This document shows, piece by piece, positions 15,482 through 62,123 of a DNA stretch of 64,000 bases (the first letter of the stretch is position 1; each line of letters opens with the position of its first letter). Where the stretch lies: assembly GCA_022823225.1 (NCBI GenBank), contig JAJDXM010000057.1:1-64000 (forward strand). The letters are read 5' to 3'. The translations under genes and the position numbers were made by a program. Origin of the DNA: Gemmatimonadota bacterium (GTDB lineage Bacteria; Gemmatimonadota; Gemmatimonadetes; Longimicrobiales; Gaopeijiaceae). The notes beneath the pieces are model-generated. The model saw only the letters and a list, made by a program, of their open reading frames with translations, made no database searches and was not told the DNA's origin.

Positions 15482-15893
15482 CATCGGCATCTGGGAGATC
15501 GACCGGACGTCCCAGGCTGGAACCAAGCTCGATCTGGCCGAGAGGATTGAGACGGAAGAGATGCTGGAAGCCGTGCTGGTGGCGAACCCCGAGATGCTGA
15601 TGAGCGGGCTCACGCTGGTCGGCAGGCAGGTTCCGGTCGAAACCGGTGCCGTTGACCTTCTCGGCATTGACGAAGACGGTCGGCTGGTGGTCTTCGAGCT
15701 CAAGCGCGAGAAGCTCACGAGGGCCGCCGTCGCACAGGTACTGGAGAGGAAGCCGTCGCAACGGGCCCTCCTGCGGGGCACGTCCAAGGTAACTCGCTCG
15801 TGGGGATCCAAGAGCAAACGGGGAGGCGTCCGAGCTTTTCCAAGCCGGGAACGGCGGCATCTCAGGAAGCTCTGCACGGACGTTCGGAAGTAG
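15471..15893 (+). pseudogene. DUF91/NucS-like nuclease, C-terminally truncated
   Basis: A 140-residue product. Residues 1-95 look like the N-terminal part of DUF91 (NucS-related) PD-(D/E)xK nucleases, with METEEMLEAVLVANPEML-like helices, GAVDLLGIDEDGR and the catalytic VVFELKRE. After AVAQVLER the sequence turns into Arg/Ser-rich residues with no family likeness, so the C-terminal part has been lost by deletion or frameshift. It starts inside the Mrr-like gene and was probably cotranscribed with it. Whether the shortened protein is active is unknown. Confidence 0.6.
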
Positions 15894-16865: not shown

Positions 16866-17809
16866 CCAGCCCCCGCCAACTGGCCCTATTCGGAGGGTCC
16901 ACCCCAGACCAACCGGAGGAAACCCGCGGACAGCCCGGTCCCACCCGCTTAGGCCACGCCAGCATCGACTACAAGCCGGCGCGCGCCATTCTTACGAAGG
17001 CGACGGGGTTCATGGATGCCTACGACTTCACGCTGAACCCCTATTCCGGCTGCGCGTTCGGCTGCACCTACTGCTATGCAGCCTTCTTTTCCCGCGCTTC
17101 CGGATCCATGACCGGCGCCGAGAGACGCGACACTTGGGGGGCGTGGGTCGAAGTCAAGGAAAACGCGATCAAGCTACTGGAGAGACGCCGCAAGCCCCTG
17201 GATGACACCCTCATCTACATGAGCAGCGTGACCGACCCGTACCAGCCCATCGAGCGCAAGCTGAACCTCACTCAAGGGCTTCTGGAGGTTCTCGCCAAGC
17301 GGCATCGTCCGAAACTGGTCGTCCAGACCCGAAGTCCCGATGTCGTGCGCGACGCGGACCTCTTTCGCGAGATCGTCGCCAACGGCGGCAGAGTCCAGGT
17401 CAATCTGACGGTCACCACCGACGACGAAGACGTACGCCGCGCGTTCGAACCAACCTGTCCGAGCAACGCCAAGCGTCTTGGAGCTGCGAGAGAACTGGTC
17501 GGGCACGGAATCGCGACCTGTCTGACGATGACGCCTCTGCTGCCGGTCGAGAACGCAGAGCGGTTTGTCGACGATCTTCTGGCCACGGGTGTCCAGAACT
17601 TCATCGTCCAGCCCTTCCACTTCCAGAGCGGCAAGTTCATAGCCGGAACACGGGACGCGGCGCTCGGTATTCTGGCGACAAAGCTCGATTGCGGTCAGCG
17701 CAGCGTGCCGGGGCGGTACTTGGAGCATTATAATCGCGTTCGAGACACGCTCCGTAGTAAGTTGCCCGGACTTGGCGAGGGCAAGGACGGATTCAAGCCC
17801 CCGTTTTGA
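16862..17809 (+). CDS. SPL-type radical SAM protein
   Basis: A 315-residue radical SAM enzyme of the spore-photoproduct-lyase-like group. The iron-sulphur motif is CAFGCTYC (Cys-x3-Cys-x2-Cys) at about residues 63-70, and SVTDPYQPIE and QTRSPDVVRD follow as in the family. Characterised relatives repair DNA photoproducts or modify other molecules through a 5'-deoxyadenosyl radical; the role here is unknown. GTG 16862 overlaps the previous stop (GTGA). It ends 108 bases before the first DUF6361 gene on the same strand, so it could be transcribed into that cassette. Confidence 0.85.
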   Translation: MTSPRQLALFGGSTPDQPEETRGQPGPTRLGHASIDYKPARAILTKATGFMDAYDFTLNPYSGCAFGCTYCYAAFFSRASGSMTGAERRDTWGAWVEVKENAIKLLERRRKPLDDTLIYMSSVTDPYQPIERKLNLTQGLLEVLAKRHRPKLVVQTRSPDVVRDADLFREIVANGGRVQVNLTVTTDDEDVRRAFEPTCPSNAKRLGAARELVGHGIATCLTMTPLLPVENAERFVDDLLATGVQNFIVQPFHFQSGKFIAGTRDAALGILATKLDCGQRSVPGRYLEHYNRVRDTLRSKLPGLGEGKDGFKPPF

Positions 17810-17917
17810 TGAACGGCCCCACCCTCCCCACGGTCCGCTGGCCGCCTTTCTGGTCGTTATCCGCGGCCTCTTCCAAACGGTCGCACCGCTCAATGCACGG
17901 AATAAAGAGGGGATGAC

Positions 17918-19144
17918 TTGGAAAGCACACTGACCTGGCTCGACCTGACCTCGGGAGACCGCAAAAGGATGCGGCGCGTCCTCGACTTCCTCAACGAGCC
18001 GGAAACAATCGACGAGATGGGCCTCGCGACACTGCGCGACGGCTTCTCCAACGCTCTGTTTCCAGGGACATCGACGCTCCAAACCCGACTGCGATACGTC
18101 CTGTTCGTTCCGTGGATCTACAAGCGACTTGAAGCAGCAAGGACCAGCAGCGCCGATGTCGCGGCAGCAGGGCGCCGGGACGAGACCGCCCTTATCGAGC
18201 CGCTCCGTGACAGCAACGAGAACGGCATCATTGGCGCCCGTGCCGGAGCATCGCTGGCCCGGCTGCCCAGCTCCGTGTACTGGTCTGCTCTTGTACGCTG
18301 GGGTGTGTTTCAGCGCGACCGAAGTCAAGCCTGGTATCACAGCAATTTTCGTAGCGTGGCGGACCAAGGGCTGAGTGCTGCGGTCGCCGCCGATGATCCG
18401 GGAGTCGTGGACCTGCGCCGTCCCAGCTGGCACCCCCGGTTGCCCAAGCAACCGGCCGACTTCCCGACCGGGATCTCGTTCGCCCTCACGCACGAAGAAG
18501 CAGAGTTCGTTACGGGACGGATCGAAGAGCGATGCCCACGCACCCTGCTGGCACATCTCGCCGGCGCGGTCGGCAAGTTGGTCGAGGGCCCACCATGGGC
18601 TCAACCGGCCGCCCGGAATGCGGGTCCGGAGGTCCGCAAGGTCGTCGAGCTTGCGCGTCGGTTCTCCCTGCATGTGAAGGGAGCCCCCCTGCTCTACAAT
18701 CTCCTGCTAGCCGAAAGGCGGCACGCCATCCACGGAAGCGACGAGGATGAGGCCCGGATTGATTCCTACCAAGGGAGAATCTCCGAGTGGACGGAACGCG
18801 AGGCCGAGAAGGGAGCTTTCAACCCGGGCAAACTGTGGGTTTTCGCGGCCCAACACGGCGTGGGCGTCCATGGCCTGCAGCGACGCTTTGTCGAGTCGTG
18901 GTCCGCGCGCATCGGTGAGATCGTTCATCCCAAGCTCGGTGGGTCAGGAAGAGTCGCCGACGACCTTCAGCTACGCAGCTTGGTCAAGGCCCGAGAGAGG
19001 CAGCTCAAGGGGCGCCGGTCTAGATTCGACAACATGGCCAAACTTCTGGAGTGGAACGGCGCTGCGGGTGTGGGGCGGATGGAGTTCCGCTGGCCCCGCG
19101 TCCGCACTCTCCTCGATGACCTGCACCGCGGATTGATGGCTTGA
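17918..19144 (+). CDS. DUF6361 protein (helicase cassette copy 1)
   Basis: A 408-residue protein of the uncharacterised DUF6361 family. The N-terminal signature is STLTWLDLTSGDR, followed by TIDEMGLATLRD, FPGTSTLQTRLRYVLFVPW and later GVFQRDRSQAWY. It is cytoplasmic with no known catalytic motif. TTG 17918 has GAGGGG seven bases upstream. The stop overlaps the ATG of the PLD-like gene in TGATG. A second, clearly diverged homologue (MASTLTWLDYSERDR) begins an identical gene order on the minus strand at 33778. Confidence 0.85.
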   Translation: MESTLTWLDLTSGDRKRMRRVLDFLNEPETIDEMGLATLRDGFSNALFPGTSTLQTRLRYVLFVPWIYKRLEAARTSSADVAAAGRRDETALIEPLRDSNENGIIGARAGASLARLPSSVYWSALVRWGVFQRDRSQAWYHSNFRSVADQGLSAAVAADDPGVVDLRRPSWHPRLPKQPADFPTGISFALTHEEAEFVTGRIEERCPRTLLAHLAGAVGKLVEGPPWAQPAARNAGPEVRKVVELARRFSLHVKGAPLLYNLLLAERRHAIHGSDEDEARIDSYQGRISEWTEREAEKGAFNPGKLWVFAAQHGVGVHGLQRRFVESWSARIGEIVHPKLGGSGRVADDLQLRSLVKARERQLKGRRSRFDNMAKLLEWNGAAGVGRMEFRWPRVRTLLDDLHRGLMA

Positions 19145-21003
19145 TGCTCTCGCCTGACTCGCGGACCGTCGCCTTCGATCTGCTTCGCCCTCCCAGCGGC
19201 TACACGCTCGACCTGGCTGTCCTCACTACCTACACGCTGGACTTGGAAGCACTGCTCGCCTTGCCGCTCAGCGTAGTGTCCGAGACTGAAGGCGGCCTTG
19301 AGGAGCTGCTAGCCGACCCGCTGCTCCTGCTTGAAGCGCTACGGAGGGCTGGTGAGCGGATTCAGCTCTTTGTGGACCGATCGGGAATTGCCATCCCGCG
19401 CGCGCCCCGCGAGCTCTATTCGGTGCTCGAGTCGAGCGTGCACCCCGTTCGAGCTCCCGGCGGTGGGGTCTTCCACCCCAAGGTGTGGGTGGCGCGGTTC
19501 ACGCCAATAGAGCCCGGGAGCGACACAGCGGTGGGTCGGGCAGAAGGACGGGAGGACGGGGCAAACGATCGACCGCTCCTGCGTGTCGCAGTGCTGACCA
19601 GAAACCTGACTTTCGACCGATCCTGGGACGTCGCACTGGCGAGCGAAGTACACCCGGATCCGGAGCGTTTGTTCGAGGCGAGCCAGCCGCTGGCCGACCT
19701 GATCCGGGCGCTGCCCGACCTGGCCACGACACCGGTCCCGAAGGACTCAGTCGCCCGCGTAAGAACGTTGGCGGATCAGATCGGTCGAGCCCGATTCCCG
19801 CCTCCCCCCGGGTTCTTTGAGGATCCAATCAGATACCACGTAATGGGCCTGCACGGAGCCCACGCGCCGTGGCGACCGATCTCCGATGGACGACGCACCT
19901 TGGCCGTCGCTCCCTTCGTCAACCGCACCGGTCTGGAGACGGTCCGCGGCCCGGCGTGGGGCAAGGGGCTTCTGGTAGGCTCGCAGGGCGAACTGGACAA
20001 GCTGTCCGACGACGCCCTGTCTGCATGGAACGACGTGCGCACACTGTCGGACCACGCGCTCGATGACGAGGCGGAGGATATCGCTGCGCGCCCATCCGGC
20101 CTGCATGCCAAGCTCATCGCCGTGGAGCACGGGTGGAATGTCACCTGGTACGTCGGCTCGGCTAACCTAACCGCAGCTGCCCTCCATGGACGCAACGTCG
20201 AGGCGCTCGCCGAGATCAGCGCGCGCAAGGGACGACCGCAGGGGAAGAGCGGTTGCGGAATCGATCGCTTCCTGGAGTCGGGGTTTGACCAGCTCTGCAC
20301 CTCGTACCAGCGGATCGAGATAGCAGATGCCGACCCGGATGTGGTCGAGGCCCGCGCGCAATTGACCGCCGCCCGGGACGCGCTGTTGAAAGCCGACATG
20401 GAGGTGGTGTGTTCCGGTTCTGGCGCGGAGTGGACATGGGCGCTGGACTGTGGCGGGCTAGGTCCCGAAACCCAGTCTGCGGTTGACGTGGTGGTGTGGC
20501 CCATCTCGGTAAGCGAGGAGACGGCTCGCCCACTGAGCCCGCCACCTGCCTTGATCCTCCCGATTCAGCACCTGACCCGCTTCGCCGCCTTTCGGCTGTC
20601 GGTTCCGGTCCGCGGCGTGGACGATGTGCGTCTCACACTGAGGCTGCCTGCTCGGGGCATGCCGGGGGGTCGCGTGCACCACGCGCTAGTGGCCTTGATC
20701 AGCGATCCTGGACGCTTTCTCCGCTTTCTGCGGGCGCTTCTCGGGGATCTTGACGCCTTGACCGGTTGGAATGGCGCAGGAGGAACCGGAGGCTACGGCG
20801 GCGACGAAGGGCCGAAACTCGATTCCGAAACCCTCCTGGAGGATCTCGTGCGCACAGCATCGAGGGCTCCAGAGCGCTTGGATCCCGCGCGCCGCTTGAT
20901 CGCCGACCTCTGCAAGACCGAGAAGGGGCGCGCGGTGATCCCTGAGGACTTCCTGAGCGTGTGGGAAGCAGTGGAGTCGGCCATCAGAGGGCGAGCAGGA
21001 TGA
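19144..21003 (+). CDS. Phospholipase-D-like nuclease domain protein (cassette copy 1)
   Basis: A 619-residue protein with two PLD-like half-sites. The first has FHPKVW at about 109-114 with TRNLTF near 153; the second has LHAKLI near 319 with GSANLT near 338. Each keeps the His-x-Lys and Asn, while the Asp of a classical HKD motif is not seen. Such domains in defence loci often act as nucleases; phospholipase activity is unlikely. ATG 19144 overlaps the stop of the DUF6361 gene, and its own TGA overlaps the helicase ATG, so all three are translationally coupled. Confidence 0.82.
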   Translation: MLSPDSRTVAFDLLRPPSGYTLDLAVLTTYTLDLEALLALPLSVVSETEGGLEELLADPLLLLEALRRAGERIQLFVDRSGIAIPRAPRELYSVLESSVHPVRAPGGGVFHPKVWVARFTPIEPGSDTAVGRAEGREDGANDRPLLRVAVLTRNLTFDRSWDVALASEVHPDPERLFEASQPLADLIRALPDLATTPVPKDSVARVRTLADQIGRARFPPPPGFFEDPIRYHVMGLHGAHAPWRPISDGRRTLAVAPFVNRTGLETVRGPAWGKGLLVGSQGELDKLSDDALSAWNDVRTLSDHALDDEAEDIAARPSGLHAKLIAVEHGWNVTWYVGSANLTAAALHGRNVEALAEISARKGRPQGKSGCGIDRFLESGFDQLCTSYQRIEIADADPDVVEARAQLTAARDALLKADMEVVCSGSGAEWTWALDCGGLGPETQSAVDVVVWPISVSEETARPLSPPPALILPIQHLTRFAAFRLSVPVRGVDDVRLTLRLPARGMPGGRVHHALVALISDPGRFLRFLRALLGDLDALTGWNGAGGTGGYGGDEGPKLDSETLLEDLVRTASRAPERLDPARRLIADLCKTEKGRAVIPEDFLSVWEAVESAIRGRAG

Positions 21004-24000
21004 TGAAGCGGCCATCCGTCGAGTACATCATGAGGCCGCTGAAGCCGTTCCAGCGGCGGACGGTTGACCATGCCTTCCACCGCCTCTTTCTGGCAGGCGA
21101 CAGCACTTCGCGCTTCCTGGTCGCCGACGAGGTGGGGCTGGGCAAGACCCTGGTTGCCCGAGGAGTCATAGCACGGACCATTGATCACCTGTGGGACGCC
21201 GTCAACCGGATCGATGTCGTGTACATCTGCAGCAACGCCAGCATCGCTCGGGCCAACCTACCCAAGCTGACGATTGGCGATGACGACGAGGGATCGTACG
21301 CCAGCGCAACCAGACTCACGATGCTCGCCACTGAACTTGCGCCTCGGCACGGTGCCACCGGTGTGCTCGAAAGGAAGCTCAACTTCGTCAGCTTCACGCC
21401 CGGCACATCGTTCAAGCTCGGACATCAGAGCGGTCAGCGAAGTGAGCGCGAGGTGCTCTTTCGTCTGTTGCACCCGGTGATCCAGCGCTGGATCCCACTC
21501 GCGAATCTGTTGCAGGCTGGGGTGAAAGACAGGGGTAAGTGGCGCGAGGGCCTCAAGGACCGCGATCTGCCTATCGAACCGGGGATCCGAGCCCGGTTCG
21601 TCAAGAGTTTCCAGGCAGACGAGGCGCTGCGGGGAGACCTTCACGACGCTCTGGATCGCTGGTTCTTTCGCTACCGAAGCACATGGCCGAGCGAGGCCGG
21701 ACGGACCCGCAACGAACTGATCGGCCGGCTGCGGCGGCTCCTTGCAGGCATCTGTCTGAAGGTACTCGAGCCTGACCTGATCGTCCTGGATGAGTTCCAG
21801 CGCTTCAAGCCTCTGCTGGAGACCAAACCAGACCGCCAGAGCGAGGCAGCCCGTCTCGCACAGGCGTTGTTCCGGATAACGGCTCATGACGGGTGCCCTG
21901 TGCGTACCCTGCTCCTTTCTGCCACACCGTACAAACTCTACACGTCCGACGCCGAGATCGACCAGGAGGACCATTACAAGGACTTCCTGAGCACCACAGA
22001 GTTCCTGTTCGGCGATCGAACGGAGCGGATCGACAAACTGAGTGAGGGTCTCGGGCGATTTGCGCGTTCCCTCAAGCGAGTCGCTTCGCACGGTTCTGCG
22101 CCCGCGGACCAAGAAGCCTTGCGGGCTGCCCGAGATGCGAAGACAAACGTGGAGCATCTGCTCGGGGCGGTCATGGCCCGCACCGAACGGGTTGCGGCCA
22201 GCGGTGACCGGGACGCGATGGTTACCGCCCCCGATGTCTCGACTGCGATTCGCGCTTCGGACGTGCGCCAATACCTCGCGGCCGACGCCTTGTTCCAAGC
22301 GGTGGGCGACCGCGACCCGATGCCATTCTGGAAATCCGCTCCGTACCTGGCCCACTTCATGCGCGGCTACAAGGTCAACGAGCGCCTCGCCAGCACGATC
22401 GCGCACGCGCCGGAAAAGATGCGAGCGGTGCTTCAGCGGCATGGTGAGTCGTTCCTGGATAGAAACGCTCTTGGGGACTGGAAGGCGATCGACCCGGCTA
22501 ACGGCAAGCTGCGCGAGATGACCACGTCTCACCTGGACCGCGACGGCTTGTGGCGGCTGCTGTGGTTGCCCCCCACGGTTCCGTACTGGCCATTGGAGGG
22601 TGCCTACGCCACCGCAGCCGGGGCGACCAAGTCACTGATGTTCTCAGCGTGGAATGTCGTGCCCGACGTGGTCAGCGGTGTGCTCAGCTACGAGGCGGAA
22701 CGACGGATGGCGGGGGGACGCATTCGCCGGTATGAGAACCCCGATGCCCAGCAGAGGCCCCTGCTTCGCTTCACGCAGCCTGCCGACGGCCGACGGTCGC
22801 GCCACCGGCTCCTCCTGCTGTTGCTACCGTGTCTGCCTCTGGCCGACGACGCACATCCCCTGCGCGCTCCGTCGGGCGCGGATCGACGCCGATGGGTGCG
22901 CGAACGTGTGAAGGCGCTTTTGTCGGGCCTGCCCAATCCTCCCGATGGCCCGATTGATGACCGATGGGAATGGGCGATACCCCTGCTACTCGATCCTGGT
23001 CTGCGGGGGTTCCTGAAGCAGTGGAGAAAGGGGGTGCCGTTTGGTCAACGGGACTCGGATCCTCTCGCCAAGCCGAATCCGGAACTCTTCGACTTCTATC
23101 TAGACGACCTCTTGGAACTGGATGCTGATCGCTTGGGGTGCCGTCCTCCTCACTTGGCCAAACTCGTCACCGAGGCTGCGCTCGGCTCGCCCGCCGTGCT
23201 CGCCATGCGGGCCCTCGGGGCGTTTTCCAGTCGGGTGACCGACAAGACCCGGCGAAGCCTCGCAGTCACCGTCGCCGGAGCATTCTGGAGCTTGTTCAAC
23301 CGCCCGGCGGTGATCTCCATGCTTCGCCATTCGGCCAGCCAGCAAGACGCGGCGGGCGACGATATCGCTTACTGGCGACTCGTACTCGAATACTGCTGCC
23401 ACGGCAACCTTCAGGCAGTGCTTGACGAACAGCTTCACCTGCTGTGGGACCAGCACTCCTGGGTACCCGACGCCGACCCGGACGCGACGGCTACACGCTG
23501 CGCCCGCCAGCTCGTACAGGGGATCAGTCCCGTCAGATCGCGCGTTCACGCCCGACTCTTCCCGCTCTCGGGCACGGATTCCGCCGTCGACCCGAGCGAC
23601 TTTCGCGTCCGTACGGTCTTCGCCCTGCGCTTCGGCCATCTGCGCGGCGAAGACGGGGTTGGGCACATCAGCCAGGACGCTGTGAGGATCGCGTTCAACA
23701 GCCCGTTTCGCCCCTTCGTACTCACCTCGACTTCGATCGGACAGGAAGGGCTCGACTTCCATCCCTGGTGCCATCGGCTGATACACTGGAATCTGCCGGG
23801 CAACCCGGTGGACCTCGAGCAGCGCGAGGGGCGGGTGCATCGCTACAAGGGTCACGCGGTCAGAAAGAACGTGGCGGCTGCGCATTCCGAGAGTGCTCTG
23901 GCGCGCTGGTCGCCGGGCGACGATCTGTGGTCTCTCATCTTCGAAGACGCGGTGCAGGCCGCCCGCGCCGCCCGCCAGTCGGATCTGGTCCCGCACTGGA

Positions 24001-24269
24001 TCGCCGAAGGACCCTGCCGTGTGGAGCGTCGCGTGCCGTTACTTCCCTACACCAGCGAGGTTGCCGCACTGGAACTCCTGAAGCGGCAGCTGGCCGCCTA
24101 CCGCCTGGTGTTCGGTCAGCCGCGCCAGGAGGAGCTGATGAACCTGATCGTGAACGCCGACATGCCGATCGACGAGATTCAGGCGCTGACGATCAACCTC
24201 GCTCCGCCTTTTCGGCGGGATCACCGGGTTCCGCGCGATCGCACCCATGCAGTCAAGTTGCCTCCGTAG
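21000..24269 (+). CDS. Large SF2 (SNF2/DEAD-like) helicase (cassette copy 1)
   Basis: A 1089-residue superfamily 2 helicase or translocase. Motif I is DEVGLGKTLVA near residue 42, motif II is LDEFQRF near 262, motif III is LLSATPY near 305, and motif VI lies in QREGRVHRYKG near 941. The spacing leaves a very long insertion (about 350-850) between the two RecA-like halves. It should couple ATP hydrolysis to movement on nucleic acid or remodelling, with the PLD-like protein as the likely nuclease partner. ATG 21000 overlaps the previous stop as ATGA. Copy 2 (30619-27359) keeps the same motifs and length. Confidence 0.88.
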   Translation: MMKRPSVEYIMRPLKPFQRRTVDHAFHRLFLAGDSTSRFLVADEVGLGKTLVARGVIARTIDHLWDAVNRIDVVYICSNASIARANLPKLTIGDDDEGSYASATRLTMLATELAPRHGATGVLERKLNFVSFTPGTSFKLGHQSGQRSEREVLFRLLHPVIQRWIPLANLLQAGVKDRGKWREGLKDRDLPIEPGIRARFVKSFQADEALRGDLHDALDRWFFRYRSTWPSEAGRTRNELIGRLRRLLAGICLKVLEPDLIVLDEFQRFKPLLETKPDRQSEAARLAQALFRITAHDGCPVRTLLLSATPYKLYTSDAEIDQEDHYKDFLSTTEFLFGDRTERIDKLSEGLGRFARSLKRVASHGSAPADQEALRAARDAKTNVEHLLGAVMARTERVAASGDRDAMVTAPDVSTAIRASDVRQYLAADALFQAVGDRDPMPFWKSAPYLAHFMRGYKVNERLASTIAHAPEKMRAVLQRHGESFLDRNALGDWKAIDPANGKLREMTTSHLDRDGLWRLLWLPPTVPYWPLEGAYATAAGATKSLMFSAWNVVPDVVSGVLSYEAERRMAGGRIRRYENPDAQQRPLLRFTQPADGRRSRHRLLLLLLPCLPLADDAHPLRAPSGADRRRWVRERVKALLSGLPNPPDGPIDDRWEWAIPLLLDPGLRGFLKQWRKGVPFGQRDSDPLAKPNPELFDFYLDDLLELDADRLGCRPPHLAKLVTEAALGSPAVLAMRALGAFSSRVTDKTRRSLAVTVAGAFWSLFNRPAVISMLRHSASQQDAAGDDIAYWRLVLEYCCHGNLQAVLDEQLHLLWDQHSWVPDADPDATATRCARQLVQGISPVRSRVHARLFPLSGTDSAVDPSDFRVRTVFALRFGHLRGEDGVGHISQDAVRIAFNSPFRPFVLTSTSIGQEGLDFHPWCHRLIHWNLPGNPVDLEQREGRVHRYKGHAVRKNVAAAHSESALARWSPGDDLWSLIFEDAVQAARAARQSDLVPHWIAEGPCRVERRVPLLPYTSEVAALELLKRQLAAYRLVFGQPRQEELMNLIVNADMPIDEIQALTINLAPPFRRDHRVPRDRTHAVKLPP

Positions 24270-24314
24270 ATGTGTAGTGACCACCTATCACCTATGGACA
24301 AGGAGAGCGTACAA

Positions 24315-24776
24315 ATGGCTGTTCTAGCCCGAGTGTTGTTGTTGATCATCTTCGCTTTCGGCTCCTCGTGGCTCTCGGTTGAATCGGAACCCTCTCCACA
24401 GTATACAGTCGTGTTCGAAGGCTATCCGACCAAAAAGGTGGAGACTGGCCCCGACGTGCTCATGGAACGTTCCCTGAGTCCAGAGGAGTCCGACGAGTTC
24501 GCGGTCCGCATTGTGGTGGATCAAGAAGGCAACTACTTCTGGGCAAGCCGGGAGATGAAACCGATGGTCAAGGTGCTCAGCGGCTCCTACGTGACCTATG
24601 CGGCCACGTCGGGATACGTCCGCACTTACATGGATGATGTACTGGACATGGCGAGAGCGGGCATCGACTCCACCGTTGCGAGCATCATGGGCCTAGATCA
24701 CTCATACGAATACGTTGAACACCTTTACATTTTCTTCGGCGGCATCAACTACTACGGTGAACGACGGGATCGGTGA
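24315..24776 (+). CDS. Small membrane-anchored protein of unknown function
   Basis: About 153 residues: an N-terminal hydrophobic segment (LARVLLLIIFAFGSSWL) that could be a signal anchor or signal peptide, then a soluble part rich in acidic and aromatic residues with no family I recognise. AGGAG nine bases before ATG 24315 supports this start; ATG 24270, touching the helicase stop, is possible. It follows the helicase on the same strand and could be a fourth cassette member, but copy 2 has no equivalent. Confidence 0.55.
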   Translation: MAVLARVLLLIIFAFGSSWLSVESEPSPQYTVVFEGYPTKKVETGPDVLMERSLSPEESDEFAVRIVVDQEGNYFWASREMKPMVKVLSGSYVTYAATSGYVRTYMDDVLDMARAGIDSTVASIMGLDHSYEYVEHLYIFFGGINYYGERRDR

Positions 24777-24846
24777 TAGGAGGGCTGTTGGTAGCCGTTC
24801 GGATGGCCAGCCGATACTCCGGCCACAGCAGCTGCTGGTTTCCTGA

Positions 24847-24888
24847 ATTGTCCACTACAGTATACAGAATGTAAAGCCGTCTTGACAT
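24847..24888 (+). repeat. 42-bp dispersed element, copy C
   Basis: The left part reads ATTGTCCAC and the right part GTAAAGCCGTCTTGACAT, with 15 bases between. The middle, TACAGTATACA, is nearly the same as TACACTATACA of the copy at 27328. It lies between convergent genes, 47 bases beyond the HNH gene stop, and with copy B it brackets exactly two genes. Confidence 0.7.
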
Positions 24889-24935
24889 TTTTCGGGAACC
24901 GAGGGCCGACCGCGGAAATCGGCATTACCGGGTCA

Positions 24936-26009
24936 TCACGCCGCGGGCTGGCCCGCGGCACCCAGTATCCTCCTCCAGTCGCCTGACAGCGGCTTCAGGT
25001 CCACCTTCGATCCGACCCAGACCTGCCGGTCCGCCTCGGCCGCCTGGCCGTACGCCCAGTGCGCAATCTGGCGGCTCTTGGGCCAATCGTGCAGGACTCT
25101 GAGTTGATCGAACCCGTGCTCCAGTTCGGCTCGACGGGTACGGCTTCGCTCGGTCCATCGTTCGAGGTGCTCTTCCGCCGCGAGCAGGTCCGACTTGCTT
25201 GAGTTACACCCCGGGTGGGCCAGGACGAAGTTGTGGCCAAGGTCCAGCGAGTAAATTCGCCAGGGGATGAAGTGGTCGACGTCCCCCCGCGACTTGATCT
25301 CGCGCTCGCAGTAGAAGCAGCGGCCTTCCTGCAGATCCGTCAGCAACGGACGGTAGGCATCGAGCGCCTTGCGTCGCGATCCGAATAGGAACGACCGGAG
25401 GTCGACGACCTGGCCCAGGTGCTTCCGGTTGCGTTGCTGGACGAACTGAGACCACGCCCCCTCGATCATGTCGGTTATCATCGGATAGAACGCCCGAAAG
25501 CAATAGGCGACGCCGGGCTGAAGCCGAACGACCTGGCCGCTTTCGTGGTTTTCGTATAGGAAATCCAGCCGGCCGGACCTGACGGTCTGCAACTTCCAGA
25601 GCGGCATCTTCCTTACCGTCCGCTCTACCTCGCGTAGCAGGCGGTCCCAGTCCGACCGACTTCTCTCGAGGTCGGCCAGTGACCCCTGATACCGGGCGCG
25701 TTGTTCAGCAACATGGCGGACGATCGCTGCTTGTCGGCCCGTGTTCTGGCTCAGGATCGGCTGCTCCGCGCTGGCCGAATACGGTACCACCTGGGGCCAG
25801 TACAGCCGGATGAACTGTGCCGCGATCTCGGAGGTGGACAGCTCCAGCTCCGCTCCACTGTCGTCGCCCTTGACGAGACACAGGTCGGCGATGGCGTGGA
25901 GCAGGGCGAACTTGTAACTGGCGACGAAGCTGCCCTCGTCCATGAGCCGCTGGAGCAAGCGGAGGAAAGCGAGTTGCTCGCTGGCAGTCGGCGGTCGTGG
26001 GCCGCTCAT
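24936..26009 (-). CDS. HNH endonuclease
   Basis: A 357-residue protein with a C-terminal HNH nuclease domain. A zinc knuckle CFYCEREI (about 228-235) is followed by DVDHFIPWR (about 245), NFVLAHPGCNSSKSD (about 260-273) and a helical tail. The N-terminal 220 residues are helical and may recognise the target. ATG 26009 overlaps the stop of the DUF429-HIT gene as ATGA, so the two are cotranslated. It ends the minus-strand series that begins with the second DUF6361 gene. Confidence 0.85.
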   Translation of the reverse strand: MSGPRPPTASEQLAFLRLLQRLMDEGSFVASYKFALLHAIADLCLVKGDDSGAELELSTSEIAAQFIRLYWPQVVPYSASAEQPILSQNTGRQAAIVRHVAEQRARYQGSLADLERSRSDWDRLLREVERTVRKMPLWKLQTVRSGRLDFLYENHESGQVVRLQPGVAYCFRAFYPMITDMIEGAWSQFVQQRNRKHLGQVVDLRSFLFGSRRKALDAYRPLLTDLQEGRCFYCEREIKSRGDVDHFIPWRIYSLDLGHNFVLAHPGCNSSKSDLLAAEEHLERWTERSRTRRAELEHGFDQLRVLHDWPKSRQIAHWAYGQAAEADRQVWVGSKVDLKPLSGDWRRILGAAGQPAA

Positions 26010-27289
26010 TGGTCCCAATACGCCGCGCATTCGGGCAGGACCCAGCGGATACCGCCCCTCGGGTCTGCCACGTCCCCGTAGAAACGGGGGATGACGTGCA
26101 CGTGCGCGTGCTCCACCGTCTGACCGGCGGCCCGGCCGTCGTTGAGTCCGATATTGAAGCCATCGGGATTGAGGTGTGACTGAAGGTCGGACCTCACCTT
26201 GGCGACGAGATGCCAGACATCCGCCTGGGCTTCGGTGCTCAGGTCAAACAGGGACTTCACGTGAGCCTTGGGGACTACGAGAGTGTGCCCCCTGCTGACG
26301 GGGTACCCGTCCCGTATGGCGACGGCGTGGCGTGACTCGGCTATCACGGTTTCTCTGCTGATGACGCGGAACAGGCAATCGGCCTGCGGTTGGGCCGCGG
26401 GCCGTGAGGTGGCAGCATCGGCGCGGGGCTCTCTTGGCCACCAGATTGCGCCCTCGATTCGTTCCACGGCGTCAGGGGATTGGGTGAGCTCGACGATTTC
26501 ATCCAAGTGGCGGCTCATCTCCACGGCCGATACTGCCGCGTCGAAGGCGTCCTCGGAGGAAGCAGCTTTACAGGCGAGCCCGCCACCAATCTCGGGGAGG
26601 CACTTGGCAGTCAGGTGCGCTCGACGCTTGCAGAAGTCAGACTTCGTCACCCGTCCGGTGAGCAGCCGCGGATAGATTTCGATCACGATAGGGGTCTGAC
26701 GGGGCTCGGTATCCGACGGCGCCCGCGGCTGGGCTCCGTGGAATGGCCAAATCGAGAAGCCCGCCTCAGCGAGTTTCGCCAGGTAGGGCATTCCACGGAT
26801 CGAGCCTGTGCCGACCGCGCCGGCGCCACCGATCTGGAAGACGCTCTTGGGATTCACATCTTTCGTTTCAGCAGCGCATCGTTCCGTGCGCCGATAATGC
26901 TCGCGCAGGTCCGGTCTCGGCTTTCCACGCCTGCCCCAGAATGGGGGCTGGCAGTTGCTCAGCCAGTCCTCGCCCTTCTTGGCCACCAGGTCCCAAACCT
27001 CCTTGATCGAGGTCGCACCCTCTCCCTCCGCAAACCAGCTGGCGAAGGAAAACGCGAAGTCCAGACCGACGACCAAGTCGGGGTCCGTGCTGGCGACTTC
27101 GATCAGGTACGCGATGAGCTCGTCACGATCGCGTCCCGATTCCAGGCGCGTGAGCCGTCCGCCGCAGACCTCGGCCAGCCAGATCTTGGACCTCGCTCCG
27201 GCCTTGGCTCCGGACCAATCGACGGCGATGACCCGTTTCATGGAACGCGGCCATCGGTGTGCGGGGAGGGTCCTCGGAGATTGGTCCAT
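26006..27289 (-). CDS. DUF429 - HIT domain fusion protein
   Basis: A protein of up to 427 residues. The N-terminal part (VIAVDWSGAKAG at about 20-31, DLVVGLDFAFSF near 70) is DUF429, an RNase-H-like fold domain of unknown activity. The C-terminal 110 residues are a HIT domain ending in the histidine triad HAHVHVIPRF (about 395-404), which in characterised members hydrolyses or transfers nucleotides. ATG 27289 has GGGAGG four bases upstream; ATG 27241 starts directly at the DUF429 homology. The fusion suggests action on a nucleotide or nucleic-acid end. It is coupled to the HNH gene, and a 42-bp element separates it from the helicase gene. Confidence 0.82.
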   Translation of the reverse strand: MDQSPRTLPAHRWPRSMKRVIAVDWSGAKAGARSKIWLAEVCGGRLTRLESGRDRDELIAYLIEVASTDPDLVVGLDFAFSFASWFAEGEGATSIKEVWDLVAKKGEDWLSNCQPPFWGRRGKPRPDLREHYRRTERCAAETKDVNPKSVFQIGGAGAVGTGSIRGMPYLAKLAEAGFSIWPFHGAQPRAPSDTEPRQTPIVIEIYPRLLTGRVTKSDFCKRRAHLTAKCLPEIGGGLACKAASSEDAFDAAVSAVEMSRHLDEIVELTQSPDAVERIEGAIWWPREPRADAATSRPAAQPQADCLFRVISRETVIAESRHAVAIRDGYPVSRGHTLVVPKAHVKSLFDLSTEAQADVWHLVAKVRSDLQSHLNPDGFNIGLNDGRAAGQTVEHAHVHVIPRFYGDVADPRGGIRWVLPECAAYWDQ

Positions 27290-27327
27290 CGGCCCTCCCG
27301 GTGCCCTCCAGCCGGCAATAGGGGCGA

Positions 27328-27369
27328 AATGTCAACTACACTATACATTTGGTAAACTTTAGATTACAG
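27328..27369 (+). repeat. 42-bp dispersed element, copy B
   Basis: The left part reads AATGTCAAC and the right part GTAAACTTTAGATTACAG, with 15 bases between. It overlaps the last codons and stop of the helicase gene (minus strand) and precedes the DUF429-HIT gene. The minus strand reads TATAGT in its middle, so a promoter for DUF429-HIT is possible. Confidence 0.7.
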
Positions 27370-30300
27370 TATTGGCCGGATTCGGCGCTGCCGACAGGTC
27401 GATCCGCAACAAGGGCTCAAGCTCCCGCAGCTTCTCTCGAGGCACCCGCTCCAGAAGAAATGCCACCAAATCGTCCTGCCGCGGCTGCCCGAAGACCATG
27501 CGGTAGACCGCAAGGGATCGCTTGAGCGCGTGGAGTTGAGACGCGTCCCAGCTCAGCGGCAGTGCGGGAACGTGGCGTTCGATGTGCGCGCCGTCCGCCA
27601 GCGGGAATAACCAATACGGCACGAGCCCACGACCGGCCGATGACTCCTGCAGGGCCGCTTCGAAGAGGGCCTTCCAAACGTCATGGTCGCCACCGCCAAG
27701 CACCGCGGCGCCGTGCTTCGCCGCGACGTTCTTGCGCACGGCGTGTCCCTTGTAGCGGTGGACCCGGCCTTCGCGCTGCTCGAGGTCGACGGGGTTGGAC
27801 GGCAGGTTCCAGTGCATGACGGCATGGCAGTAGGCGTGGAAGTCCAGTCCCTCCTGGCCGACTGACGTGGACGCCAACACGAAGGGCCAGAACGGTGAGT
27901 TGAACGCCCGGCGGACCTGTCCCTCGCGCGCTCCCGCCCGCCCGTCGTCGGTCTCCTGTGCACCGAAACGCATGGCGAAGTGGTTGCGCATGCGGCGACG
28001 CTCGATGCGCACGGTGTCGTCGGCGCGCCGGAACTCGTCCACGCGCGGGGCGCCGGTGCGAAGCGACAGCGCCGCCGAAACCGCCTCGGCCAGCCTCTCC
28101 CAGGCCTTCTCGTTGGCGGTTGCAAACAGGCCTTCGAGGTCACGCAAAGTATGGACGTATTCGTCCAGCACTGCCTGCAGATTGCCCGCCGCGCAGTAAT
28201 CCACCACCTGTCGCCAGTATGGGGTCTTGTCACCTCTGGAACGCTCGCCCCGGATGAGCGCCGTCGCCTCCGGGAGGTTGAACAACTTGCGGAAGCTCCA
28301 GGCGATCCGGGCGGCGGCGTCCCGGGCCGCCCGTGACGCACGCGTCGCGGGACCGGAGGCTCGCGTCAGTGCCCTGAGGGCGCTCGTCGCGGGGCCGGCC
28401 ACGGATCGCGTGGCGAGGGCGTCGGCGAGGTCGGCCGGGGGTCGTCCCAGATCCCGCGAACCGTGCATCAGTGCGTCAATGCCGCCGTCAACGAGGCTTC
28501 TCGCTTCGCTGACGTGGTCCACCCAGCGCGACTCGTCATCGTCATCACCCTCCGCGCCCGTCCACCGCCGTGCGAGGTCCCCACGGCCGAACCATTCTCT
28601 GGTCGAAGCCTCGTGCTCCTCGAGATCCAGCAGGATCGGGGCCGCCCAGTACCAGCTCTCGTCTTCACGCGCAGCATCGAGGTACGGCTCCGTGAGTGCG
28701 GCAAGACGCGGTTCGAGTCGCTCCCGCGCTCGGGCAACGGCATCTGCCAGGGTGGCTCCACCCTGGGGCACCGCAATGGGATCCCCCAGCTCGGCGAGGG
28801 TGGGACTCGGGTACAGGATCGCAAGCACCGGCATTCCCGTGAGACCCTGACGCTCCTGCGAATACGCGAATCGCAGCAACGGGCGCCGCTTTTTGCGCTC
28901 CTTGGGTGTGTTAAGGATCGACTCGTGAAAGCGCGGGAAGATGCGGCGCTCGACGTCGTAGCTCACCACAGCCGCGACAGCCTTGGGAACGACCTGCCAG
29001 GTCGAGAAGATCAGACGCTTGGAAAGTTGCTGCTGGCGCGCCGTCCTCCATTGACCGGACTCCGCGTAGTACGGAAGTGCAGGCGGAAGCCACAGAAGCC
29101 GCCACGCCTCGCCGCGTTCCATCCACTCGAGAAGGCTACGCAGGCGCGCGTTGGCTGGGTCGAGTTGCGCGTAGGCCTCGACCTCTTCCCCGGAAAGGGA
29201 GACCCGTCCGCTATCGGCCAAGAGCTCCGCGAGGCCATTGTCGGACGACATGTCCAGTCTCGCAATGACTTTCTTCTTGAGTTGGTAGTCGTCCATAAAA
29301 CTCAGGAGGTAGGGCGCCGACTTCCAATATTCGAGGACACCCGGCTGCCTTACTTCGCGACCGATCTTCTCCAGCGCCAGGAAGTCCTGCACGTCTCCCG
29401 CGGTAAGAGCCAATCCCGCGCATGGGACTTCGCGCATCATCCCGTCCGATTCCGTGGATACCCGCAGCCTTTCGGTCCGCGACATGACCCGCCGGAGCTG
29501 CTCTTCGATCCGTCTCTTGATCCGTACCAACGACTCGGTCCCGGACTCGATCCGGTACATCGCCTGGCGGTAGTCGTCCAGAAGCCCGCGGAGACCGCCG
29601 CTCTCCTTCAGCTTGGGGTCCAGGAACTCGACGGTGCGCAGAAAGTCCCGGTAATGGTCGTCGTCGGCACTTTCGTGATGGAGCGTGTACATCCGGTAGG
29701 GCGTAGCCGAGAGGAGCAACAGACGAACGTCGGCGGTATCGACGGAGTAGTTGAAGAGATGTCTCGCCAGCCTTGACGTGGCATCCTCTCCGTCCAGGAG
29801 GTGCTTGAACCGCTGGAATTCGTCGAGGATCACGAGGTCGGGTTCCAACGCGGTAACGCAGACCTCGGCCAGCATTGCGCGCAAGTGGCCGATGAACCCG
29901 ATCTGTTCCTCGCGATCGGCCCACGGGATTCGAGTTCGAGTGCGCCAGAATCGCTTGCAGAGGTCCTTGTACCGTTTCCGAAGATCTTCGCCTTCATCGA
30001 CAAGACGACGCTTGAACGCATCCCCGAGATCGTCATCGATCCGCGCCCAGCGCGTGAAATCCTCCAGCTGCCAGCGAAAGTTCCTCGTCTTCCTCACATA
30101 TCCTTGCAGGACGTTCATGGGACCCTTGCGATGATCGGGCCAAACACGCTGCAAGAGGTGATAGAGCACGACGCGCTCTTCCGCGGTTCCCATGCTGCTC
30201 CTCAGATCGAACGAGGTGCCAGGCGTAAGCGCGAGGTAGTTGACCCTGTTCGCCTTCAGGTCGTGGAGCTCCCGCGGCAACAACCCGAGCCGCCCAGCCC

Positions 30301-30619
30301 GAACAAACCTGCCGCTGCCAATCTGAAGTCTGCGAACGTTCTGTCTGGCGATCTGTGCGTTGGAGCAGATGTAGACGATGTCGATCTGCTCGACTCTGTC
30401 ATCGCCGTCCCAAAGGTGGTCGATCGCCTTGGCGATTACCCCGCGCGCCACCAGCGTCTTGCCGAGACCAACCTCGTCGGCCACAAGGAAACGACGGGTC
30501 GAGTCCTCCGCCATGTACAGGCGCTCGAAGGCGTATTCGACGGTGTCGCGCTGGAATCCCTTGAGGCCATCGAGGACGGCTTTCGGGTCGGGGCGCTCGC
30601 CCGCACGCTGTGGGCTCAT
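27359..30619 (-). CDS. Large SF2 (SNF2/DEAD-like) helicase (cassette copy 2)
   Basis: A 1086-residue homologue of the helicase at 21000. It has DEVGLGKTLVA near residue 45, LDEFQRFK near 268, LLSATPYRMYT near 305, and QREGRVHRYKGHAVRKN near 950, with the same long middle insertion. The two proteins agree closely in the motif blocks and differ widely elsewhere, so they are old relatives, not a recent duplication. ATG 30619 overlaps the stop of the PLD-like gene as ATGA. The last codons lie inside a 42-bp element. Confidence 0.88.
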   Translation of the reverse strand: MSPQRAGERPDPKAVLDGLKGFQRDTVEYAFERLYMAEDSTRRFLVADEVGLGKTLVARGVIAKAIDHLWDGDDRVEQIDIVYICSNAQIARQNVRRLQIGSGRFVRAGRLGLLPRELHDLKANRVNYLALTPGTSFDLRSSMGTAEERVVLYHLLQRVWPDHRKGPMNVLQGYVRKTRNFRWQLEDFTRWARIDDDLGDAFKRRLVDEGEDLRKRYKDLCKRFWRTRTRIPWADREEQIGFIGHLRAMLAEVCVTALEPDLVILDEFQRFKHLLDGEDATSRLARHLFNYSVDTADVRLLLLSATPYRMYTLHHESADDDHYRDFLRTVEFLDPKLKESGGLRGLLDDYRQAMYRIESGTESLVRIKRRIEEQLRRVMSRTERLRVSTESDGMMREVPCAGLALTAGDVQDFLALEKIGREVRQPGVLEYWKSAPYLLSFMDDYQLKKKVIARLDMSSDNGLAELLADSGRVSLSGEEVEAYAQLDPANARLRSLLEWMERGEAWRLLWLPPALPYYAESGQWRTARQQQLSKRLIFSTWQVVPKAVAAVVSYDVERRIFPRFHESILNTPKERKKRRPLLRFAYSQERQGLTGMPVLAILYPSPTLAELGDPIAVPQGGATLADAVARARERLEPRLAALTEPYLDAAREDESWYWAAPILLDLEEHEASTREWFGRGDLARRWTGAEGDDDDESRWVDHVSEARSLVDGGIDALMHGSRDLGRPPADLADALATRSVAGPATSALRALTRASGPATRASRAARDAAARIAWSFRKLFNLPEATALIRGERSRGDKTPYWRQVVDYCAAGNLQAVLDEYVHTLRDLEGLFATANEKAWERLAEAVSAALSLRTGAPRVDEFRRADDTVRIERRRMRNHFAMRFGAQETDDGRAGAREGQVRRAFNSPFWPFVLASTSVGQEGLDFHAYCHAVMHWNLPSNPVDLEQREGRVHRYKGHAVRKNVAAKHGAAVLGGGDHDVWKALFEAALQESSAGRGLVPYWLFPLADGAHIERHVPALPLSWDASQLHALKRSLAVYRMVFGQPRQDDLVAFLLERVPREKLRELEPLLRIDLSAAPNPANTVI

Positions 30620-32559
30620 GACATCAGAGCCTTTCGCGCCGCCCACACCGGTTCCCATATCTCGTCCAGGCCCTCCGGCAGAAGATCTCTACCCTCCGGC
30701 GTCTTTTCGAGATCGGCAATCAGCCGGGCCGCGTCGTCGATTTGCCTCGGGTTGTCGCTCAAGCTCCGGAGAAGAGCCTCCAGCAGCGTTCCCTGGTCCC
30801 AGCCTCCGAAAGTTCCGGGCGATTCCTTGTCGCCACCACGCGCTGCTTCCACGAACGCCGACACGTCCGCGCCCTCCCCCATCAGAATGAGGAGCAGGAG
30901 CTGGAGGACGCGGCGGCGATCCTTCAGTAGTGAGCGCAACAGGCGCGGCTTACGGTCCTCGGGTGCTCCAACCAGGTCGGCAGTCACCGCGAATCGCTTC
31001 CGCACTTCGTGCCGCCCTTCCCGTAGCGCGACCTCGAACGCGAAGAAAGCGGTCAGTGCTTCGAACGAGATTCCCTTGAAGGTGGCGATTCCGTCGTCGG
31101 GATCGGTCTGGCTTACGATGCCAGGACCCGTAACCTCCGCACCCCGAATCTGTATTGCCTCCTGGTCGGAAAGCGTCACCGGCCATACCTTGACCTCTGC
31201 CCCAGCGGATATGTTCGGAAGTATCCCCGACAACGTTAAATCCCAGCGCTGCTCCTGGTCCACATCGCGCGCCATCGCGCGCAACCGGGCAGCACCCAGT
31301 ACCCGCGTCAACTGATCGGCGCGTCGCTCAAGGGTACGTTGCGCGTCGTCCGCGGCGGGGATGGAATCAGGCACTTGGTACTCCTGCAACAGCGACCGCA
31401 GGGTCTCGAGCCGCGGATCGTCTTCAACGCCCAGGAGCGCGTTGATGCCGCAGTTCTTTTTCTTGCCAACCAGTTCAACCAGCACTTCCACATTCAGCTG
31501 GAACGCGGCGCTCGTCGCGTTGGCCGAACCGGTAAAGAGCCTCGCCTCCCGACCGTTCTCGAACAGGAACAACTTGGCGTGCAGACCGACGAGTTCCACC
31601 GGGTCATCGGCGGGTGGCGACCCACTATCGGGTGGCAACCCATCAACCCGCGACGACTCGTCCGCTTCCTCCTCTTCCGCGTTGCGTGAATCGAGGCTGG
31701 CACCAGGCGAAAGCACATAACACGTGCCAGGCAGGCCCTCTTTTCCCAAGCTACGGGCAACATCCTCGAAGGCCTCCGGCCGCGAGATCAGAACCTCGAG
31801 CCCGTGATCACGCACAAGGTCCTCCACGGTCGAGCCGACAAGGAACGGCGACACCACCAGGCTGCGCTGCGCCTCAGGGAAGGGCCATCCACGCTGGCGC
31901 GTCAGGCCAAGGCTGTGTACTCGGAAGTCACTGAACCGTTCGGGTGGCCGGAAGTCCACTCTCCGGACTTCGTACGCCATCCGGTTGATGTCTTCGCGCA
32001 ACTTGGCCGGCAGCGATCGAGTGGACAGCCCCGGAAGGGCCACGAGCAGATCCGCAAACGGCTTGTTTCGCGCGTAGCCGCGTTGCCGCTTCGTAAGGCG
32101 TCCCTCCAGACGGAGGCAGGTATCCCACGCCCGGGCAAACGTCAGGTTGCGGGAGAGGCAAAGCACTCGGTAGATCGAGGGCCGGTCGTCCGCCTCGAAG
32201 TTGAGCACCCAGATCTTGGGGTGGAAGATTCCTTCCTTCCGCGGCGCTTCGACTTCGAACACTGAGCCTTCGAGGTAGGCCATGAGGCGCTGTTGCGGCT
32301 TGGGCACGCCGATCGCACCGGCCTGACAGAAGAGCGTGACCTTCTCGGCATGTCGCCGGAGAGCCTCGAGCAGGGCCACGGGATCGGTCACGGGGGCACC
32401 ATCGTCGTCGTGGGCGTCGAAGAAGGTGAACGCGAGGGGCGCCGTCAGCAGCGCCATCAAGTCCAGCGTGAAACTGGTCCCCACGGCGCGCCGCAGTCGG
32501 TAGCCGGCCGGGGGGCGCAGGGCTTCGAGGAGGAGCGTCCGCTCACGCGTTCCCAGCAT
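30616..32559 (-). CDS. Phospholipase-D-like nuclease domain protein (cassette copy 2)
   Basis: A 647-residue counterpart of the protein at 19144. Half-sites are FHPKIW near residue 111 with SRNLTF near 136, and LHAKLF near 326 with GSANATSAAF near 343. As in copy 1, the His-x-Lys and Asn of each half are kept and the Asp is not. ATG 32559 lies within the last 17 bases of the DUF6361 gene. The C-terminal end overlaps the helicase start. Confidence 0.82.
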   Translation of the reverse strand: MLGTRERTLLLEALRPPAGYRLRRAVGTSFTLDLMALLTAPLAFTFFDAHDDDGAPVTDPVALLEALRRHAEKVTLFCQAGAIGVPKPQQRLMAYLEGSVFEVEAPRKEGIFHPKIWVLNFEADDRPSIYRVLCLSRNLTFARAWDTCLRLEGRLTKRQRGYARNKPFADLLVALPGLSTRSLPAKLREDINRMAYEVRRVDFRPPERFSDFRVHSLGLTRQRGWPFPEAQRSLVVSPFLVGSTVEDLVRDHGLEVLISRPEAFEDVARSLGKEGLPGTCYVLSPGASLDSRNAEEEEADESSRVDGLPPDSGSPPADDPVELVGLHAKLFLFENGREARLFTGSANATSAAFQLNVEVLVELVGKKKNCGINALLGVEDDPRLETLRSLLQEYQVPDSIPAADDAQRTLERRADQLTRVLGAARLRAMARDVDQEQRWDLTLSGILPNISAGAEVKVWPVTLSDQEAIQIRGAEVTGPGIVSQTDPDDGIATFKGISFEALTAFFAFEVALREGRHEVRKRFAVTADLVGAPEDRKPRLLRSLLKDRRRVLQLLLLILMGEGADVSAFVEAARGGDKESPGTFGGWDQGTLLEALLRSLSDNPRQIDDAARLIADLEKTPEGRDLLPEGLDEIWEPVWAARKALMS

Positions 32560-33778
32560 CGCCCTCGCCCCGCGCCAGCCCGTCAAAGATGTCTTTGAGA
32601 ACCCGCTTGGCTGGACCCCACCGGTAGCTCAGGCGTCCCGTGCCGGACTCCCCGCGCCACAACTCAAGCCGCCGCTGGTTCGTCAACCGCGCCCGGGCCC
32701 GTTTGAGTTGAGTCTCACGACCCCTCACGAGCGTTCGCGCGGTGCTGTTGTCGGCGGTGCCCTCGGGCCCAGCTCGTTTCAGATTCTCGACCCAGCTCTC
32801 GACAAAATCCCGGGTCGGATACCTGAGCGTTCGGCCCTGGGTCTTCACGACTCGCCATACCCCGTCCAGTCTCCAGTCCTTCAGGGCCGACTCGAGTTGA
32901 AGGACGTCGTCCGCCCACTTCACCAGCCTGCGTCGATACTTCTCCTGCCAGTCGTCACGCTTCCTTAGTTCGGAGAGCATGAGGTTGTAGAGAAGGGCCG
33001 CCCCCTGCATACAGACGGCGAAGTGTTTGCCGTCCTGAAGATTGCCCCGCAGAACCGGCGAGACCTCTGGGAGGCGGGCCAGATCCCACGGCCAATCGGC
33101 TTCGAGATCCTCAACGGCGGCGCGGCCCGCCAGTACAGCCAAAAGGCTCCCGCCTAGCCGCGTCTGAATGCGCTCCCTCAAGTACCGGGCGTCCTTTCCG
33201 CGCAGTGCAACCGAGACGCCTGCGTTCGGGAATCCTGACGGTGGGCACGGTAGGTGAGAGTGCCAATTCGCTGGGGGCGCGCTCCTTCCCTCCGGGTCAC
33301 GCGACGTGTCCGCAAAATGGCCTTTGCGCCGGTGGAAGCCATCGAGGGATCGAAAGTACGCCCACTGGTGGCCCGAAAACGTGCGGATGCCCCAACTTCC
33401 AAGGCCGCCCCAATAGACCTCGCTCGGAAGGCGCTTCAGGGCGTCACCAGCCTGCGAACCGAACACCCCCCAAGTGTCACTCCCCTCGCGCAACCGTCCG
33501 TTGAGGCGCAGCTCTTCCCAACGCGCTCGCCCCTCAGCTTCACCGGACGTAACCCGCAGTCTCTCCAGCCGCAGGAAAGTCCACGGAATCAGCAGGAAGT
33601 AGCACGCCCGAGTCTGAAGTGTCGTGGTGCCGGGGAAGAACAGATCCGAGTAGCTGTTGCCGACACCCCCCAGCCCAAGCTCGTCGACGGTGCCCGTCTC
33701 GCGGAACAGATCAATGACGTCCAATGCGCGACGTCGGTCACGCTCCGAGTAGTCGAGCCAAGTTAGTGTTGATGCCAT
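32543..33778 (-). CDS. DUF6361 protein (helicase cassette copy 2)
   Basis: A 411-residue DUF6361 protein that opens the minus-strand operon. It shares STLTWLD, TVDELGLG, FFPGTTTLQTRACYFLLIPW and similar blocks with the copy at 17918 but differs in most other positions. No enzyme motif is evident. The operon order DUF6361, PLD-like, helicase matches copy 1 and then continues with DUF429-HIT and HNH. Confidence 0.85.
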   Translation of the reverse strand: MASTLTWLDYSERDRRRALDVIDLFRETGTVDELGLGGVGNSYSDLFFPGTTTLQTRACYFLLIPWTFLRLERLRVTSGEAEGRARWEELRLNGRLREGSDTWGVFGSQAGDALKRLPSEVYWGGLGSWGIRTFSGHQWAYFRSLDGFHRRKGHFADTSRDPEGRSAPPANWHSHLPCPPSGFPNAGVSVALRGKDARYLRERIQTRLGGSLLAVLAGRAAVEDLEADWPWDLARLPEVSPVLRGNLQDGKHFAVCMQGAALLYNLMLSELRKRDDWQEKYRRRLVKWADDVLQLESALKDWRLDGVWRVVKTQGRTLRYPTRDFVESWVENLKRAGPEGTADNSTARTLVRGRETQLKRARARLTNQRRLELWRGESGTGRLSYRWGPAKRVLKDIFDGLARGEGDAGNA

Positions 33779-33907
33779 GTTGGTTCGCGCGGTCGCTCCG
33801 TCAGCCCCGGCCTGCCGCCTCTACCCATCGGACTCGTATGATAGTACATCGGGCAGACGACGGGCGGCGAGTGTCGGTGTCGCCGCTTGACGGAATGGAG
33901 CAATGCT

Positions 33908-34228
33908 ATGAGCAGGGTCAAGAACCTCTACGTGATTCGCCTTGATAGGGCCGTGCTGCAGGAGCCGAAGTTCAGGAGTGAGAATCCTGGCTATCGGCGG
34001 TGGAAACCGTGCGTCTACGTGGGCGTCACCTCGCTCGACCCCGAAGAGCGCTTTCGGCAACACAAGAGCGGCTACAAGGCCGCGCGATACGCCAAGAAGT
34101 ACGGCAAGTACCTCATGCGAAGGAAATACGAGAAGCTGAATCCTGTCCCGTTGGCTGAGGCCGAGGATCGGGAGAGAGACTTGGCTGAATCACTACGACG
34201 GCGAGGTTATGGGGTCTGGCAACGCTGA
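33908..34228 (+). CDS. Small GIY-YIG-like protein
   Basis: A 106-residue protein. NLYVIRLD near the N terminus, then PCVYVGVTSLDPEERFRQH, resembles the two strands and following Arg helix of GIY-YIG nucleases, with Tyr-Val in place of the second motif. An acidic segment (LAEAEDRERDLAE) may supply the metal ligand. GGAG seven bases before ATG 33908 supports the start. It is divergent from the second DUF6361 gene, with 129 bases between them. Confidence 0.55.
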   Translation: MSRVKNLYVIRLDRAVLQEPKFRSENPGYRRWKPCVYVGVTSLDPEERFRQHKSGYKAARYAKKYGKYLMRRKYEKLNPVPLAEAEDRERDLAESLRRRGYGVWQR

Positions 34229-61979: not shown

Positions 61980-62123
61980 CTTCTGGTTTCCTTGCTGACT
62001 ACCGGCTCGTGCTTCTCTGGGTAAGGAGGTCAGGTCACCAGTGCACAGCTCGGCATAACCCACTAACGAACAACGGTCACTCAGGCTAACACAGTTTCCG
62101 ACCAGGTTCAAGGCGGGCAGCGT

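Follow-up and report, generated by a model that had tools for sequence, protein, structure and literature searches.

Two sets of the same three genes lie close together and face each other in a single bacterial genome; what do they encode, and how did both come to be there? The window, a stretch of 64,000 nucleotides from contig JAJDXM010000057.1 of a Gemmatimonadota bacterium, carries the two cassettes at 17918-24269 (plus strand) and 33778-27359 (minus strand). The two share one set of three overlapping genes, identically ordered and in stop-free frames, and they are convergent. When frames, stops and junctions were checked, the positions, lengths and overlaps given in the original prediction all stood. 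The genes are as follows.

17918-19144, plus strand: zacA of copy 1 (DUF6361, 408 aa, TTG start); PADLOC ZacA, E 1.5e-118, residues 1-406; Pfam DUF6361, E 2.4e-57.
19144-21003, plus strand: zacB of copy 1 (PLD family, 619 aa from the ATG overlapping the zacA stop, 620 from the upstream TTG); PADLOC ZacB, E 1.7e-147; both HxK..N half-sites present.
21000-24269, plus strand: zacC of copy 1 (SF2 helicase/translocase, 1089 aa); PADLOC ZacC, E 0, 1024 bits; helicase motifs intact.
27359-30619, minus strand: zacC of copy 2 (1086 aa); PADLOC ZacC, E 0, 1144 bits; 90% identical to its counterpart in G061, a genome considered below.
30616-32559, minus strand: zacB of copy 2 (647 aa); PADLOC ZacB, E 4e-166; AlphaFold2 model mb667d24c97ae.
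32543-33778, minus strand: zacA of copy 2 (411 aa); PADLOC ZacA, E 2.8e-121; AlphaFold2 model m0c997b5ac26d.

Within each copy the genes are adjacent, on one strand and in the order A-B-C. The junctions read TTGATG (TGATG) and ATGATGA; in copy 2, zacA and zacB overlap by 17 bases, and zacB and zacC meet at CATGAG (ATGA). Sequence alignment finds the catalytic motifs intact in both copies. A simple Nei-Gojobori estimate of dN/dS, each gene being set against its nearest relative, gives 0.15-0.34 for all six zac genes; thus, both cassettes are under purifying selection. The genome (4.19 Mb, 97 contigs) has only two DUF6361 genes, and both belong to these cassettes.

The PADLOC models for ZacA, ZacB and ZacC match all six proteins over nearly their full length (E from 1e-118 to 0), and the match of ZacA to Pfam DUF6361 is above the cut-off. 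Both cassettes are, with near certainty, complete Azaca operons (zacABC). In a passage citing Millman et al. 2022, PMC10952713 attributes this anti-phage system to those authors and lists a PLD-like domain for it; a passage of PMC12278908 counts 'Azaca (ZacC)' among the systems with a helicase, and the mechanism is given as unknown where Azaca is mentioned in PMC10482375 and PMC12926258. The literature search for DUF6361 itself gave no match, and ZacA as a name matched unrelated words only. The original prediction had known of no described system with DUF6361 and had named prior description of the set as the outcome that would count against it. That outcome is what was found: the DUF6361/PLD/SF2 helicase set is the ZacA/ZacB/ZacC of PADLOC, already named as Azaca (PMC10952713, PMC12278908). 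The set must be struck off as a candidate new system, and the pair are further members of a described one. The predicted defence role fared better, as the resemblance of all six proteins to models of a named anti-phage system suggests that both cassettes probably serve in defence.

The AlphaFold2 model of ZacB (54 sequences, pLDDT 85) was compared with solved structures by Foldseek and VIA-align. The closest fold is that of yeast Tdp1 (Z 20.8, rmsd 3.8, 310 residues), followed by PLD3 (Z 18.5; PLD3/PLD4 about 18), with a match that spans residues 1-409. A Tdp1/PLD3-like fold is thereby predicted for ZacB. Its single chain carries two HxK...N half-sites, which, judging from the Tdp1 alignment, would meet in one active site. 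In the numbering of copy 2, H113, K115 and N138 are invariant (57/57), and H327, K329 and N347 are present in 56 of the 57 sequences, the exception being locus L042. By sequence, only the second half-site matches known PLD nucleases (SauUSI, E 3e-6; BfiI, 0.002).

The sequence of ZacC marks it as an SF2 translocase of the RapA/DrmD-like type, with motifs that vary little or not at all: Walker A, DEFQ, SAT and motif V/VI (the C-terminal arginine motifs) occur in 53-54 of 54 rows, one Walker A position being T or S across rows. Outside ZacC itself, the named families closest to it are DrmD, DpdE and RapA. The ZacA model is all-helical (pLDDT 90). No relative of ZacA was found among solved structures by sequence or fold (no Foldseek E below 2.9), and its best structural Z, 4.5, is meaningless for a helical protein. 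Together, a Tdp1/PLD3-like ZacB, a RapA/DrmD-like ZacC and a helical ZacA lacking a solved relative provide a structural lead for Azaca.

How might these proteins act together? We think it somewhat probable that invading DNA is attacked by a metal-independent PLD nuclease, brought to it by a DNA-translocating complex, and that self is distinguished from foreign by the state of the DNA. Assuming that ZacA, ZacB and ZacC form a complex, ZacC would load where invading DNA shows an abnormality (for example an end, a gap or a replication intermediate), then translocate along the DNA and drive ZacB, with ZacA as an adaptor or sensor. ZacB would break phosphodiester bonds by covalent-histidine, metal-independent chemistry, and phage or plasmid DNA would be degraded. 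There is no modification gene within the zac cassette; thus, self is probably told from foreign by DNA state and not by methylation. Two diverged versions of Azaca may widen the range of invaders or triggers. Two points weigh against a nuclease driven by a translocase: the zacB of L042 lacks the second half-site, and the PLD fold leaves the substrate open to lipase, transferase or end-processing roles. Lipases, transferases and end-processing enzymes belong to the PLD family as well as nucleases, and the fold does not fix the substrate.

Abortive action is a minority possibility that deserves weight. In such a case, a DNA intermediate would be sensed, and host and phage DNA would both be degraded, by analogy with Hachiman, for which a passage of PMC12278908 reports abortive degradation of host and phage DNA alike. 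The design of an SF2 helicase with a nuclease is the same, and the lack of a modification gene leaves the cassette without a means of protecting host DNA. Such action overlaps with the nuclease-translocase model preferred here.

It is rather improbable that Azaca is an end-processing system, in which the Tdp1-like ZacB would hydrolyse DNA ends linked to proteins or adducts, freeing phage DNA of its terminal proteins or of trapped enzymes, with ZacC remodelling the complex. The closest solved fold of ZacB is indeed Tdp1, and the HxK..N form of its motif agrees with this; however, PLD3, PLD4 and other PLD enzymes have the same core at slightly lower Z, and the sequence profile points to the nucleases SauUSI and BfiI. 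More speculative still is a specific version in which ZacB is a Tdp1-type phosphodiesterase acting on protein-capped or adducted phage DNA ends, with the two copies recognising different linkages or invaders. If this were true, Azaca would defend the cell by attacking DNA-protein linkages.

Whether the three genes form a unit was examined by scanning genome contigs with the ZacC alignment alone. This yielded 45 real relatives (L042-L086) and also drew helicases of other kinds, whose resemblance is confined to the C-terminal motifs. The zacB gene lies directly upstream of zacC in all 45 relatives, and zacA precedes zacB in 44; in the remaining one (L063) the contig ends there. Some loci, such as L083 and L085, have partial zac genes. 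The order zacA-zacB-zacC recurs across at least 14 named phyla, one archaeon included. No relative was detected in the viral contigs scanned, which is weak evidence against phage-borne Azaca. Among 395 genomes of the same phylum as the window, 15 carry zacA. Two zacA genes per genome were found in one genome of this sample (G337) and in 3 of 42 carriers elsewhere (G395, G400 and G420), on different contigs; two Azaca copies per genome are uncommon, not unique. None of the other genomes examined has a side-by-side pair. The nearest case is L042 (Acidimicrobiia, L042:8193-14831), where a second zacC fragment lies 1.4 kb downstream of the intact zacC. Given that its zacB lacks a half-site, this locus appears to reflect decay or recombination.

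Two further genes lie between the cassettes, beside copy 2 and outside Azaca:

24936-26030, minus strand: HNH-nuclease-like protein (364 aa), paired with the HIT gene; weak HNH match, E 5e-4.
26006-27289, minus strand: HIT-domain protein (427 aa); Pfam HIT, E 4e-24.

That zacABC and these two genes form one five-gene system is very improbable. All five lie in one 8.9 kb block common with G061 at 84.5% identity; against this, the HIT-HNH pair recurs in more than 10 other genomes of the phylum with zac not nearby, G259 and G139 hold the pair and zac on different contigs, and no HIT gene was found beside other zac loci. The five-gene unit was rejected because most carriers of the pair have it independently of zac. 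The pair is a module independent of Azaca and a passenger here, possibly an uncharacterised two-gene defence module. By eye, the HIT protein resembles DUF429 in its N-terminal half, which Pfam does not confirm.

Both operons sit in a defence island, with PDC-S02 Mrr, IetA-like AAA and GIY-YIG genes as defence-type neighbours. The surroundings include:

70-1137: phage-type integrase gene at the window edge.
12390-13379: AAA ATPase gene; PADLOC IetA, E 3e-73.
14276-15481: Mrr-type restriction endonuclease gene; PADLOC candidate PDC-S02, E 1.6e-131.
15471-15893: short NucS_C-like frame right after the Mrr-type gene.
15918-17809: methyltransferase-like gene that overlaps a DUF5131-like radical SAM gene, the two lying immediately upstream of Azaca copy 1.
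33887-34228: gene for a small GIY-YIG nuclease, just beyond the start of zacA copy 2.
49465-51239: ThiF/E1-like protein gene overlapping a 136-aa gene of unknown family.
57265-57957: rve-type transposase.
58245-62111: 1288-aa TPR protein with GreA/B-C and PIN-TPR-GreABC domains.

The genes scanned next to the IetA-like gene included no IetS partner; a gene 96% identical to the IetA-like one adjoins the Azaca locus of another genome, G064. The overlapping pair at 15918-17809 is one that we take to resemble a TcmP/radical SAM pair. The ThiF/E1-like protein has an N-terminal HNH..D stretch that by eye resembles a JAB site, and its locus could be a ubiquitin-like conjugation operon. The integrase and the transposase are signs of a mobile or much-recombined island.

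The remaining question is the origin of the two copies. Corresponding proteins align end to end, with BLASTP identities of 34% for ZacA (414 columns, E 1e-68), 31% for ZacB (681 columns, E 2e-64) and 39% for ZacC (1113 columns, E 0); cross-matches between non-corresponding genes are noise. Only three short stretches of the cassettes (61-210 bases, 69-79%) are still alignable as DNA. In contrast to the 31-39% between neighbours, copy 1 reaches 79-90% identity with the single copies of three congeneric genomes (L033, which is incomplete, L034 and L035). For copy 2 the values are 82-90% against L030, also of this genus, and 62-79% against L031 and L042. In the ZacC tree, copy 1 falls in a six-row clade (100%) that includes one Planctomycetota and one Wenzhouxiangellaceae row, and copy 2 is placed in clades of four rows (100%) and five rows (99%), whose members include one Acidimicrobiia and one Planctomycetota row. 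The shared DNA is also separate: 17901-24208, with copy 1, is common with G064 at 88%, and 24935-33804 is the 8.9 kb block of copy 2 with the HIT and HNH genes that is common with G061. Separate clades, close relatives elsewhere and separate DNA blocks indicate that the copies were most likely acquired independently. The original view of an old divergence, with two related systems gathered in one island, is in agreement with these data. A duplication inside this genome followed by divergence, which the common gene order and island might suggest, is scarcely credible in view of the separate clades and blocks and of the closer relatives in the genus, and a recent duplication is ruled out by the ZacC tree and the relatives in other genomes. 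The adjacent operons offer a natural test of phage-range difference between two Azaca lineages.

Comparison with known systems places these features in context. DISARM (DrmA, DrmC, DrmD) shares with Azaca an SF2/SNF2 helicase and a PLD-type protein, and the C-terminal helicase motifs of DrmD are common to ZacC; however, the cassette has neither DrmB nor a methyltransferase, and ZacB is two-lobed, with a DrmC match only around one half-site (E 0.005). Scores of the cassette proteins against the DrmC and DrmD models are far below cut-off, and neither DrmB (DUF1998) nor the DISARM core drmABC was matched in the cassette proteins or scanned neighbours. Mokosh, described in a passage of PMC10952713 as an anti-phage design of a helicase with a PLD-like domain, shares that design, but it lacks DUF6361 and has a different gene architecture. 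No model of MkoA/MkoB or the single-gene MkoC was among the PADLOC matches of the cassette proteins, and NCBIfam phospholipD_antiphage scored 32 bits against a cut-off of 1100, through short helicase stretches only. Hachiman (HamA, HamB) likewise couples a helicase to a nuclease effector, in two genes instead of three, and was also absent from these PADLOC matches. Tdp1 and PLD3-PLD4 share the fold of ZacB and its two HxK..N half-sites in one chain, whereas identity is about 15% or less, and ZacB carries an additional region at its C-terminus and shares an operon with a translocase gene. Azaca itself (PADLOC PDLC03828-03830) agrees with both copies in its three genes and in the order, length and domain type of each; here the two diverged copies are adjacent and convergent, whereas the other double carriers found have them on separate contigs.
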